This document shows positions 3,875 to 36,644 of a DNA stretch of 38,046 nt, piece after piece; position 1 is the first letter of the stretch; every line of letters starts with the position of its first letter. Source of the stretch: Bacteroidales bacterium (GTDB lineage: Bacteria > Bacteroidota > Bacteroidia > Bacteroidales > Bacteroidaceae). A program made the translations under genes and the position numbers. The DNA lies in NCBI GenBank assembly GCA_022772475.1, contig JALEZQ010000001.1, positions 1-38,046 of the forward strand, in the 5' to 3' direction. Below the pieces are notes generated by a model. The model ran no database searches and was not told the DNA's origin. It was given only the letters and a program-made list of their open reading frames with translations.

Positions 3875-4498
3875 ATGGCCCCAATACCCAAATCTCCCGT
3901 ACAAGTGCGGCAGACCGTCATACAGGCTGCCACGCAATATATCAAAGAACACGGATTGCGCTCGTTCACGATGGACGAACTGGCGCATAACCTGCGTATG
4001 TCCAAACGCACGCTCTATCAGGTGTTTAGTGATAAGGAAGACCTTGTGTTCCACTGTTTTGAAGCAGAGAACAAGGTGCGTGCCGAGCGCGTGGCGGAGA
4101 TAATGGCCGGTTCGGAAGACGTGCTCGACGTCATGCTCAAGGTCGTGGCCTATGAGATGCAGAAGTTTGGCGACATGCGGCCCGCCACCATCGAGGAATT
4201 GCAGAAGTTTCCCAAGGTTGTGGCCCTGCTCGAGAAGCAGCGTCGCGAGCAATCGACGCAGGGGGCACAATTTTTCGAGAAGGGCGTAGAGCAGGGACTT
4301 TTCCTCAAGGGCATTGACTACACCATCGTCGATTCCATAATGCGCAATATGATTCGCAACGCCATGTACGAGGATACGATGCGGGAAGTCAGTTTTAACC
4401 ACATTTTTCGCCACGCCGCCCTTATCTACCTCCGCGGCTGCGCTACCCCCAAGGGCATAGAGCGTATCGACGCCTTCCTGAGTGCGTTGCCCCAATGA
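3875..4498 (+). CDS. TetR/AcrR-family transcriptional regulator
   Basis: The 207-residue protein has a TetR N-terminal DNA-binding domain. Its helix-turn-helix is at about residues 31-51 (FTMDELAHNLRMSKRTLYQVF), followed by SDKEDLVFHCFE, the usual start of helix 4. The remaining 140 residues are helical and of the variable ligand-binding type, so the effector cannot be named. No efflux pump or enzyme adjoins it. Upstream is a pseudogene scar and downstream, 6 bp past the stop, the 72-bp repeat array begins. It may regulate itself or distant genes. Family certain, target unknown. Confidence 0.93.
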   Translation: MAPIPKSPVQVRQTVIQAATQYIKEHGLRSFTMDELAHNLRMSKRTLYQVFSDKEDLVFHCFEAENKVRAERVAEIMAGSEDVLDVMLKVVAYEMQKFGDMRPATIEELQKFPKVVALLEKQRREQSTQGAQFFEKGVEQGLFLKGIDYTIVDSIMRNMIRNAMYEDTMREVSFNHIFRHAALIYLRGCATPKGIERIDAFLSALPQ

Positions 4499-4504
4499 TT
4501 ATAC

Positions 4505-5268
4505 ACGACAACCAACACAACGGGAACAACTTTGCTTGTTGTACAAGTTGTTCCCGTTGTCGTCTTAAAATATACACGACAACCAACACAACAAGAACAA
4601 CATTCTTGGTTGTACAAGTTGTTCCCGTTGTCGTCCCAAAAATATACACGACAACCAAAACAACGGAGACCACATACTTTGTTGTATAAGTTGTTCCCGT
4701 TGTCGTCCTAAAAATATAACACGACAACCAAAACAACGGGGACAACATACTTTGTTGTATAAGTTGTTCAAGTTGTCGTCCTAAAAATATAATACGACAA
4801 CCAACACAACGGAGACCACATACTTTGTTGTATAAGTTGTTCCCGTTGTCGTCCTAAAATATAACACGACAACCAACACAACGGGGACAACTTTGCTTGT
4901 TGTATAAGTTGTTCCCGTTGTCGTCCTAAAAATATAACACGACAACCAGAACAACGGAGACCACATACTTTGTTGTATAAGTTGTTCAAGTTGTCGTCCT
5001 AAATATAACACGACAACCAAAGCAACGGGGACAACTTTCTTGGTTGTACAAGTTGTTCCCGTTGTCGTCCTAAAAATATAATACGACAACCAGAACAACG
5101 GAGACGACATACTTTGTTGTATAAGTTGTTCCAGTTGTCGTCCTAAAAATATAACACGACAACCAAAACAACGGGGACAACTTTCTTTGTTGTATAAGTT
5201 GTTCAAGTTGTCGTCCTAAAAAATGTACGACAACCAGAACAACGGGGACAACGTGTGTTGTTGTATGA
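4505..5268. repeat. Tandem array of 71-73 bp self-complementary units (10 full, 1 partial)
   Basis: Units begin with ACGACAACC at 4505, 4576, 4648, 4721, 4794, 4866, 4939, 5010, 5083, 5156 and 5227, giving periods of 71-73 bp. Each unit has an ACAAC-rich left half, a short centre near TTTGTTGTA, a GTTGT-rich right half ending GTTGTCGTCC, and an A/T-rich linker near TAAAAATATAAC. Left and right halves can fold into a long imperfect hairpin. Across each linker GTTGTCGT and ACGACAAC also form a perfect 8-bp inverted repeat. The changing period breaks every reading frame, so it is not coding. The last copy decays after 5250. It fills the whole gap between convergent tetR and tdk. Confidence 0.95.
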
Positions 5269-5284
5269 GCAAGTCCGTTCGGGT

Positions 5285-5860
5285 TTACCCCTGTTTCACC
5301 GCGTTGTAGCACTGGCGGCACAGCGGCTCGTATTCCAGCTTCTCCCCCAGCATCACGCGGCTGCTGCCCTCCACGATACGGTGAGAGACGTATGCCAGTG
5401 CGCCGCAACGCACGCAGATGGCATGCACCTTCGTCACCTCCTCCGCGATGGCACAGAGCGCCGGCATCGGTCCGAACGGTCGGCCCTGATAGTCCATGTC
5501 CAGTCCGGCGACAATCACCCGCTTACCACTGTCCGCCAGCGTATTGCATACCTCCACCAGACTGTCGCCAAAAAACTGTGCCTCGTCGATGCCCACTACG
5601 TCAGCCGCGTCGGCCAGCGGCAGGATGTCCGCCGCATCCGCCACCGGGCGCGAGGGGATGGCATTTGCGTCGTGCGAAACCACCTGTACGTCACTGTAGC
5701 GCGTGTCGATGGCCGGTTTGAAAATCTCCACCCGCTGGTGCGCAATCGTCGCGCGCCGCAGACGGCGGATCAGTTCTTCCGTCTTACCCGAAAACATCGA
5801 GCCGCATACCACCTCGATGTGGCCGCGGCGCAGGAAATCCTCCTGAAAAGTATGTGTCAT
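5285..5860 (-). CDS. tdk: Thymidine kinase
   Basis: This type II thymidine kinase phosphorylates thymidine to dTMP in nucleoside salvage. The 191-residue protein shows the P-loop [14 protein letters not shown] near residue 20 and the Walker B-like [10 protein letters not shown]. The lasso-region stretch [18 protein letters not shown] and structural zinc cysteines in CVRCG and CRQC are also present. The frame is open further upstream, but the ATG at 5860 gives the family's usual N-terminus and length. A Bacteroidetes -7 box lies about 125 bp upstream. It converges with tetR across the repeat array and is divergent from the rplC operon. Confidence 0.96.
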
Positions 5861-20828: not shown

Positions 20829-21074
20829 GACATGGCACCGGGAGCGCAGCTTAGTAGTGCCATGTCCATTGACATGGCACCGGGGCGCAGCCGCGTTTTT
20901 GCGGCAAAGAATAGGTGTCTTTTATGTAGTGGTGGCATGTCCATTGACGTGCCACTTGCGGCGTAGCCGCGTTTTTTTTTCGGCAAAGAATAGGTGTCGC
21001 GGCCGACGCCGCGACGCGTGCTGAGTGCCACGTCAATGGACATGGCACTACTACGCGGCCTCACCCATTGACGT
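20829..21074. repeat. Cluster of small palindromic repeats between rplQ and frdB
   Basis: Three hairpin cores lie at 20857-20880 (GTGCCATGTC, CATT loop, perfect 10-bp stem), 20932-20955 (one G-U pair) and 21025-21048 (opposite orientation, AATG loop). The first two belong to direct copies about 75 bp apart. These also share CGGCAAAGAATAGGTGTC, at about 20902 and 20981. The third is the inverted partner: 20852-20873 is the exact complement of 21032-21053, so the whole 200 bp can fold on itself. Half-sites flank it at 20829 and 21065. No gene is visible from 20760 to 21204. Confidence 0.85.
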
Positions 21075-24893: not shown

Positions 24894-25017
24894 ATTATGT
24901 GAGCGTATTTTCTTCACCCTGCCCCTTATCCCCATTTCTGAGGATGCTGTCGCCCTGCGCGCGGCCTCTATGCCCGCGGCAACGCATAGGGCATCGTATG
25001 TTGTCATCGCTGTATAG

Positions 25018-25044
25018 GTTGTCGTCTGAAAAATGCACGACAAC
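25018..25044. repeat. Solitary degenerate copy of the 72-bp array junction motif
   Basis: GTTGTCGT, an 11-base A-rich spacer (CTGAAAAATGC) and ACGACAAC reproduce the unit-to-unit junction of the 4505-5268 array, where the last junction has CCTAAAAAATGT between the same arms. Flanking bases (TGTATAG before, CTACAAC after) also echo the array unit. It lies nearly 20 kb from the array. Confidence 0.7.
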
Positions 25045-25238
25045 AGGGCCTGCTTCTACAACATTATACGGCAAAGAGCGTTGGCGCCGTTGTTTCGCCC
25101 CTCGTCTCAAAAAGACCATTCGCCATTGCACACTGTGCGCAAAACGTGAGTTTTGCGGCCAAAATCGTGAACAGCCGCGACGCTGCAAAGAGACGCCAAA
25201 AAGCCCCGCGGCGGGGCGAAAATCGCCTGCGGGCGCCA

Positions 25239-25280
25239 CTGTTTGGGCGACAGAAAATCCTGTTTGGGCGACAGAAAATC
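25239..25280. repeat. Two direct copies of a 21-bp TTTGGGCGACAG motif
   Basis: CTGTTTGGGCGACAGAAAATC occurs at 25239-25259 and 25260-25280, back to back. Each copy contains the small palindrome CTGT-TTGGGCG-ACAG. The core TTTGGGCGACAG recurs twice, plus one inverted copy, at 37867-37925. Confidence 0.85.
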
Positions 25281-25643
25281 CTGTAACGCTTACAGTGATG
25301 CCCCAATCGCTATGTCTCCGGCCGGTCGGCGAGGGCCGTTTTCGTGGCTTTGGAGGGGAAATTTCAGAGGTTTTAACGAACACACCGCCATCATCCGCTG
25401 CCTGTGCCATAAATTGTCAAAACCTAACGCGCCATACGTGCGTTATTTGCGGCCATGGGGGTGCGTGGTGGATTTCGCGGCCACTCTCAGCGTTAACATG
25501 TGTGAATTGCGCGATTGCACACTCGGCATCTCCTACGGCCGGCCATGGCTGCTTTGGGCGGCTACATACTCACATCTAACACATCTAAAATTATGTTCTG
25601 TGTCCACTTTTCATAAGCAGTACACAGCAACGGGGCTTATCCT

Positions 25644-25852
25644 CGAAAAAGTGTGGCCGAGGGCCGATTGTATCATCGAAAAAGTGTGGCCAAGGGCGAA
25701 ATGTATCATCGAAAAAGTGTGACCAAGGGCGAAATGTATCGTCGAAAAAGTGTGACCAAGGGCGAAATGTATCGTCGAAAAAGTGTGACCAAGGGCGAAA
25801 TGTATCATCGAAAAAGTGTGGCCAAGGGCGAAATGTATCGTCGAAAAAGTGT
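25644..25852. repeat. 33-bp tandem repeat (six full units plus partial)
   Basis: CGAAAAAGTGT begins at 25644, 25677, 25710, 25743, 25776, 25809 and 25842, an exact 33-bp period. Each unit continues GGCCAAGGGCGAAATGTATC or a close variant. Because 33 is divisible by three, frames on both strands stay open and show an 11-residue repeat. No start signal, family match or flanking protein supports coding. Units are directly joined with no variable spacer, so it is a minisatellite and not a CRISPR. Confidence 0.9.
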
Positions 25853-36252: not shown

Positions 36253-36644
36253 TGCCCCACCCTTTCTCTGACGAAAAGCCCGCCGCGGCGGACCTCACGC
36301 TGCGCCAGGCGCAGGCCATGGTGGACAACTGGATACGCACCTACGGCGTGCGTTACTTCAGCGAACTGACCAACATGGCGGTGCTCACCGAGGAGGTGGG
36401 CGAACTGGCCCGCATCATGGCGCGCCGCTACGGCGACCAGTCGTTCAAGGCGGGCGAGCCCACCGACCCGGCCGACGAGATGGCCGACGTGCTGTGGGTG
36501 CTCCTCTGCTTAGCCAACCAGACGGGCGTGGACCTCACCGAAGCCCTACGCCGCAATATAGAAAAGAAGACGGCGCGCGACAACAAGCGCCACATCGACA
36601 ACCCCAAACTTTACGACAACCCCCACACCGACAACCATGAGTAA
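36249..36644 (+). CDS. MazG-like nucleotide pyrophosphohydrolase
   Basis: The 131-residue all-helical protein shows the metal-binding EExxE pattern in LTEEVGELARIMARRYGDQS and a second ExxD in ADEMADVLWVLLCLANQTGV. These are the hallmarks of the MazG/dUTPase-like NTP pyrophosphohydrolase superfamily. It probably converts a (perhaps non-canonical) NTP to NMP and pyrophosphate. The substrate is not predictable. The start at 36249 overlaps the dtd stop (ATGA). An ATG one codon later is equally possible. It overlaps deoC by 8 bp. Confidence 0.9.
   Translation: MMPHPFSDEKPAAADLTLRQAQAMVDNWIRTYGVRYFSELTNMAVLTEEVGELARIMARRYGDQSFKAGEPTDPADEMADVLWVLLCLANQTGVDLTEALRRNIEKKTARDNKRHIDNPKLYDNPHTDNHE

Follow-up and report, generated by a model that had tools for sequence, protein, structure and literature searches.

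A dispersed family of ACAAC/GTTGT palindromic repeats that looks to be spreading between genes in uncultured Prevotella-type Bacteroidales

The tandem array between tetR and tdk

The window analyzed here is a whole stretch of 38,046 nucleotides from a Bacteroidales bacterium (assembly GCA_022772475.1, contig JALEZQ010000001.1, positions 1 to 38,046). The gap between two convergent genes of this window, which encode a TetR-family regulator (stop at 4498) and thymidine kinase (stop at 5285), is wholly occupied by an array of ladder palindromes that consists of 10 full units of 59 bp and one truncated unit, with a period of 71-73 bp. The features are as follows; those listed without a strand are unstranded.

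3875..4498, plus strand: TetR-family regulator (TetR_N, E 3.3e-10), stop 6 bp before unit 1; neighbour only
4503..5266: tandem array of ACAAC/GTTGT ladder palindromes, delimited by TRF and the unit starts
4505..4563: unit 1, full unit formula
4576..4634: unit 2
4648..4706: unit 3, third ACAAC reads ACCAC, partner GTTGT unaltered
4721..4779: unit 4, core exact
4794..4852: unit 5
4866..4924: unit 6
4939..4997: unit 7
5010..5068: unit 8
5083..5141: unit 9
5156..5214: unit 10
5227..5266: unit 11, truncated, delimited by TRF and the unit starts
5285..5860, minus strand: thymidine kinase, tdk (TK, E 1.7e-50), stop 18 bp past the TRF array border; neighbour only
25001..25090: degenerate remnant of ladder units, beside a copy of the repeat E410 described below

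The unit formula is ACGACAAC-N4-ACAAC-N4-ACAAC-N7-GTTGT-N4-GTTGT-N4-GTTGTCGT. The outer arms ACGACAAC and GTTGTCGT are exact in all 10 full units, which are separated by an A/T-rich spacer of 12-14 bp. The units start at 4505, 4576, 4648, 4721, 4794, 4866, 4939, 5010, 5083, 5156 and 5227, and TRF delineates the array at 4503-5266 with a period of 73, 10.6 copies and 87% matches (score 1087). The unit starts, the TRF output, the exact arms and the TetR stop codon at 4498 bear out the original prediction of 11 starts at a 71-73 bp period, with perfect arms, in an array that fills the gap and begins 6 bp behind the TetR gene. The view that the repeat acts as a nucleic acid is likewise supported, but the accompanying statement that all reading frames are broken is overstated: a 141-aa open frame crosses 4781-5206 on the minus strand. 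A search against Rfam yields no match in the window at the gathering score, and at E up to 10 over 4300-5500 it yields 36 matches, all under the gathering score. On the other side of the tetR gene, a 130-aa open frame at 3099-3491 matches only positions 1-82 of the 137 positions of DUF1016_N and is probably a remnant.

Conserved blocks and free filler

The unit interiors were compared in 76 units from 21 loci, for which exact outer arms and length served as the sole selection criteria. When arrays are set against each other in the better orientation, divergence is 4.7% for the inner ACAAC/GTTGT blocks and 51.1% for the filler together with the loop. Within arrays, departures from the array's own consensus amount to 14/1180 in the blocks versus 183/1357 in the filler (Fisher p 4e-36, the units not being independent).

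Individual units are strongly folded when treated as RNA, with z-scores of -4.7 to -8.7 for 12 single units, the range being -4.7 to -7.3 for the 8 from the window's own genome, 3 of which are from the window; the in-register fold is obtained for 72 of the 76 units. Pairing of the filler is at the level of chance, both in the 76 oriented units, where 557, 950, 640 and 956 of 1000 shuffles in two registers reach the observed value, and in the outer filler of 24 units from other loci, where 203 of 2000 shuffles do so. What is fixed is the block sequence and its 9-base pitch; because the filler does not pair beyond chance, it is the sequence that is conserved and not the pairing. Accordingly, the observation that right-arm changes are unmatched on the left holds for the family at large, as does the argument drawn from it, that strict pairing is not under conservation. 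The fixed blocks and their pitch point to a factor acting in trans that would read the block sequence, judging by which bases are conserved. A link to RbpB/FopS was considered and dropped, given that neither GUUG nor UUGU occurs in the passages of PMC11697453 that were searched.

Copies in the same genome and the adjoining repeat E410

The genome that contains the window (G000) is 2.38 Mb in size, in 104 contigs, and 86.8% complete. A BLAST search identifies arrays at 27 places in it, and two single units, on contigs C45 and C11, bring the set examined to 29 loci, a few of which are single units. This number is a minimum since degenerate units are also present beside three E410 copies. The unit pattern, with up to 3 mismatches, has 89 matches in G000 and none in the reversed control. 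Thirteen of the 29 loci lie within 650 bp of a contig end, and some arrays are broken at such ends. The loci resolve into 31 motif-hit clusters, of which 30 are extragenic; the remaining one (36578-36635) is a match within the coding sequence of a called gene and was dropped. Two of the 30 clusters extend 10-14 bp into the end of a called gene. A single orientation is maintained throughout in 14 of the 16 loci with two or more scored units.

E410 is a dispersed repeat of about 400 bp that is found at 25125-25525 in the window and at 39 further places in G000; most copies start and finish with TTGCACAC. It adjoins eight ladder arrays, plus one more in part, and the end of E410 that faces the array is almost invariably the same. 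Elsewhere, E410 has no match in genome G025, fragments only in the sister species described below (G079), and one copy in the independent assembly SUG549. A ladder cluster lies beside 11 of the 40 copies; 8 of these 11 were chosen as array-adjoining, and the other three are among the 32 remaining copies. The possibility that E410 and the ladder form one composite element was set aside on account of this 3/32 frequency, and the two are treated as separate. Behind the E410 copy in the window, at 25638-25852, there is a 33-bp tandem repeat with 6.5 copies and 94% matches.

Patchy distribution and comparison with a sister species

The unit pattern (up to 3 mismatches) is matched in two of the 58 genomes of the genus, with 89 units in G000 versus 4 in G079. 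A looser two-arm pattern is matched in one of 393 sampled genomes of the order, and half-sites far exceed the control in only three of 399 sampled genomes of the family: G000 (128/112 vs 2/0), G025 (23/24 vs 1/0) and G079 (19/14 vs 2/1). A mild excess is seen in a few further genomes of the family, e.g., G605 (9/9 vs 3/1). A contig scan with one genome per species (84,980 species) detects 16 stretches from 12 MAGs, G025, G034 and G079 among them, which are labelled Prevotella, Prevotellaceae, Bacteroidales or uncultured bacterium; the pattern used to find units of other species requires the outer blocks. A relaxed pattern matches all 13 unit-bearing genomes, which were picked as unit holders, with 0 or 1 match in the reversed controls. 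The search of viral contigs, plasmids and phages for the unit gives no match.

Identity between G000 and G079 at the DNA level is 87-95% at shared array loci and 81-95% at loci placed by their flanks. The flanks of 19 array loci of G000 were searched in G079, and 11 loci could be placed by matches that we judge to be unique, four by both flanks and seven by a single flank, in which case the G079 sequence continues for 788 bases or more past the break. At all 11 loci the gap is devoid of a unit; two isolated motif hits lie at the far end of one locus. The other eight loci, including that of the window, have no usable match; neither the window flanks nor tdk are found in G079. Arrays are present in both species at four further loci, which were found from the G079 side. 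Thus, among the 15 comparable loci, four are shared and 11 are empty in G079. Inspection by eye of the four empty sites with both flanks, which have diverged, reveals no target-site duplication. The original prediction would have taken a repeat confined to one assembly for an artefact or a neutral satellite, and for the family this is not the case: orthologous arrays exist at four loci of G079 and at one locus of SUG549, while the window locus is not comparable because its flanks were not found in G079.

The 89 units in G000 versus 4 in G079 favour gain in G000 over loss in G079 at the 11 loci. This polarity is nevertheless to be read with three qualifications: in a comparison of just these two species, the 11 empty sites may reflect losses in G079; the four common loci imply that not all arrays are recent; and intergenic DNA diverges fast, so that some of the differences may reflect ordinary divergence. 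Because the sister species lacks units at most comparable loci, the ladder family appears to be a new kind of palindromic repeat that is spreading in bacteria, and not a switch of a neighbouring gene.

Position relative to genes

In G000, a cluster edge comes within 50 bp of a called gene end in 13 cases, 11 of which involve a 3' end (p 0.022). These 11 edges belong to 10 of the 30 clusters, and the remaining 20 clusters have no close 3' end. The corresponding count in other species is based on the loci of those genomes with SUG549 left out and duplicates removed. In G025, G034 and G079, three of 22 clusters have a close 3'-end edge, and three of the four close edges are at 3' ends; among the other MAGs, such an edge is present in 12 of 16 clusters, with the edges dividing into 13 at 3' ends and 7 at 5' ends (p 0.26), since a large number of units are flanked by codirectional genes. 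In L056, L058, L064 and L138, for example, units are located 0-10 bp behind the upstream gene.

At four loci where G000 has an array, the only gaps that were folded, the G079 sequence past the breakpoint contains perfect stems of 10-16 bp from 30-53 nt on; three of these stem sites are behind a stop codon and one, L011, is on the 5' side of a gene. A role at 3' ends may thus pass to the ladder at some loci. In the third of G000 clusters located close behind a gene, the arrays may double as mRNA 3' ends.

The sites might instead serve the host, as binding sites or RNA hairpins (supercoil or nucleoid sites, terminators or mRNA stabilisers) that are selected at each place and do not spread. The strong conservation of the blocks over the filler and the 11/13 preference for 3' ends in G000 are compatible with this explanation, and so is a unit between thiS and thiF that occurs in two species whose thiF genes are 82% identical at the DNA level, with the outer and middle blocks unaltered. 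However, the distribution is patchy, considering that 11 of the 15 comparable loci are empty in G079, that a large half-site excess is limited to 3/399 genomes of the family with a few more mild cases, and that none of 25 other genomes has a unit in the 150 bases before thiF, even though their ThiF proteins are 79-99% identical and some are closer to either carrier. In 10 of these 25 regions, by our count, thiS runs nearly into thiF, and in some the upstream gene is not thiS. The spot upstream of thiF resembles an insertion hot spot. Several Prevotella-type genomes have other short repeats there (L183-L206), e.g., tandem runs of the GTTTGAA type in L190. Overall, selection at each place is a possible but fairly unlikely explanation.

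Local growth of the arrays

At one locus, the independent assembly SUG549 has four units versus six in G000, one of them short, with flanks that are 95-99% identical and identical array borders. This comparison of unit numbers still counts as an assembly check even if the SUG549 contig is misbinned. That contig (L068, JALFCG010000164.1), which contains ladder units and E410 and accounts for all the SUG549 hits observed, is 95-99% identical to contig C51 of G000 and may indeed be misbinned. Block repeats are apparent within arrays, such that units 1 and 2 of L009 are the same as units 8 and 9, and unit 1 of L011 is the same as unit 4; in the window array, TRF also finds periods of 145 and 289 bp. 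A self-amplifying repeat was one of the options originally listed, and this part of the prediction is supported. A separate peculiarity of G000 is an open frame at L016:3563-4867 that fuses a DUF1016/YhcG start to the end of a Schlafen-type helicase; the SUG549 counterpart in L068 consists of separate longer genes, which indicates either a deletion or a misassembly in G000.

Block duplication and unit-count change would also be expected of a neutral minisatellite, i.e., a palindrome that arose by chance and was multiplied by slippage, without being recognized by any factor in trans. Slippage alone, however, leaves the 29 loci unexplained, and a neutral repeat is hard to reconcile with fixed blocks amid free filler at the same pitch in other species (found with the outer-block pattern), so that this explanation appears very unlikely.

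Search for a driver of the putative spread

No transposase or binding protein tied to the ladder family was found among those examined. Y1_Tnp domains are detected in seven of the 13 unit-bearing genomes versus 28 of the 58 genomes of the genus; the six carriers lacking a match are all drafts. That the ladder is a REP mobilized by a RAYT or an IS200-type transposase encoded in G000 is suggested by one gene, which encodes a 151-aa IS200-type TnpA on contig C45 (Y1_Tnp, E 2.4e-19) and has a complete unit about 165 bp upstream. However, this is the single case, on one side, among 17 Y1 loci (12 in carriers and five in genomes not known as carriers), and the other Y1 gene of G000, a RAYT-like gene (~264 aa) on contig C56, is surrounded by 14 palindromes of the GTAG type (L079:1891-4051), which are another family. 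For these reasons, and with no Y1 match in 6/13 carriers, albeit drafts, the link through the C45 TnpA was set aside as highly improbable; as far as can be seen, the driver is not a RAYT. GTAG-type palindromes related to the C56 set are also present in the window, at 20852-20998, and this species seemingly has an ordinary REP-RAYT system.

The proposal that the array, which starts 6 bp behind a TetR gene, holds operators for that regulator is not supported and is extremely improbable: the array is situated behind tetR, in a convergent gene pair, and TetR_N has no match among the 42 neighbour proteins scanned at the other 28 loci (gyrase B, an EF-G, FtsH-like and M20 peptidases, a RecQ-like helicase and an aminotransferase among them).

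A model for the ladder family

The interpretation that we favour, with moderate confidence, is that the window array is one locus of a dispersed, REP/BIME-like family of intergenic palindromes of uncultured Prevotella-type Bacteroidales that would be spread by a factor acting in trans, grow by block duplication and probably serve at some loci as an mRNA 3' end. Units come to occupy gaps between genes, probably by insertion, as suggested by the empty sites in the sister species. The putative trans-acting factor would read the ACAAC/GTTGT blocks at their 9-base pitch, to judge from the conserved bases. Units multiply in place by duplication of one or several at a time, as seen in the block copies and the count difference, with slippage or unequal recombination as the presumable route. 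In approximately one third of the G000 clusters, the window included, the hairpins are the first structure behind the stop codon and would probably serve there as the mRNA 3' end too. Against this last component, the preference for 3' ends is weak outside G000 and 20 of the 30 G000 clusters have no close 3' end.

In a more far-reaching version, the 9-base-pitch ACAAC ladder would be the recognition code of a factor of Bacteroidales by which palindromes are inserted into the gaps between genes, frequently just behind a stop codon. The 3' ends of genes would thereby be exchanged, with ladder arrays taking the place of other hairpins within the divergence of sister species. This version is quite unlikely because an edge no more than 50 bp from a 3' end is found in only 10 of the 30 G000 clusters.

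With its empty sister sites and a unit-count difference in a near-identical context, the family seems to be caught mid-spread, and the contrast between blocks and filler singles out the bases that a binding factor would recognize. Should the 3'-end component be correct, mRNA 3' ends would turn over rapidly in Prevotella-type bacteria.

Comparison with known repeats

CRISPR arrays combine near-identical repeats with unique spacers; the ladder shares their regular tandem spacing, but its units diverge and its spacers are short, A/T-rich and similar to each other. MITEs are characterized by terminal inverted repeats and a target-site duplication; the ladder unit is itself an inverted repeat, and no duplication is discernible by eye at the four diverged empty sites. 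Among the matches listed in the literature searched, there is no description of the ladder repeat.

The nearest tandem repeat of the order that we came across in this literature is BrickBuilt of Porphyromonas gingivalis, described in PMC4596501 as a minisatellite-MITE with 19 copies in one genome and with 23-bp units that lack spacers and lie within leader and tail subunits. Both are intergenic tandem repeats of Bacteroidales; unlike BrickBuilt, however, each ladder unit is a palindrome with a spacer, and there is no flank common to all arrays.

The TnpAREP genes of subclass 2.6 of Bacteroidetes are flanked, according to PMC6006769, by atypical secondary structures without a GT[AG]G tag. The ladder resembles these structures in its occurrence in Bacteroidetes, the lack of the GT[AG]G tag and the presence of copies elsewhere in the genome. 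It differs from them, as far as can be compared by description only, in that no such gene was shown beside the ladder units and the RAYT-like gene of G000 is located among GTAG-type palindromes.

REPs, as characterized in PMC3733652, measure 20-40 bp and have stems of 5-13 bp with a GTAG or CGTC tag left unpaired at the foot; in GTAG families they flank the RAYT gene, their pairs are mostly inverted, and most families seldom show the head-tail arrangement. Like REP and BIME (PMC3733652), the ladder is palindromic, extragenic, present in many copies, clustered, and patchy among species. The preference of REPs for positions downstream of genes has a counterpart in the 3'-end edges of G000 but is weak in the other genomes. 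Unlike REPs as described there, the ladder unit is 59 bp long, three-step and untagged, forms head-to-tail arrays of up to ten or more units, and has no cognate RAYT that was found. In the units read, GTAG is present at neither foot, and CGTC is confined to one orientation, where it is made up of paired bases of the arm and a single base of the spacer. The ladder repeat fails the marks of tagged REPs (size, tag, RAYT and inverted pairs) and is REP/BIME-like in its behaviour.
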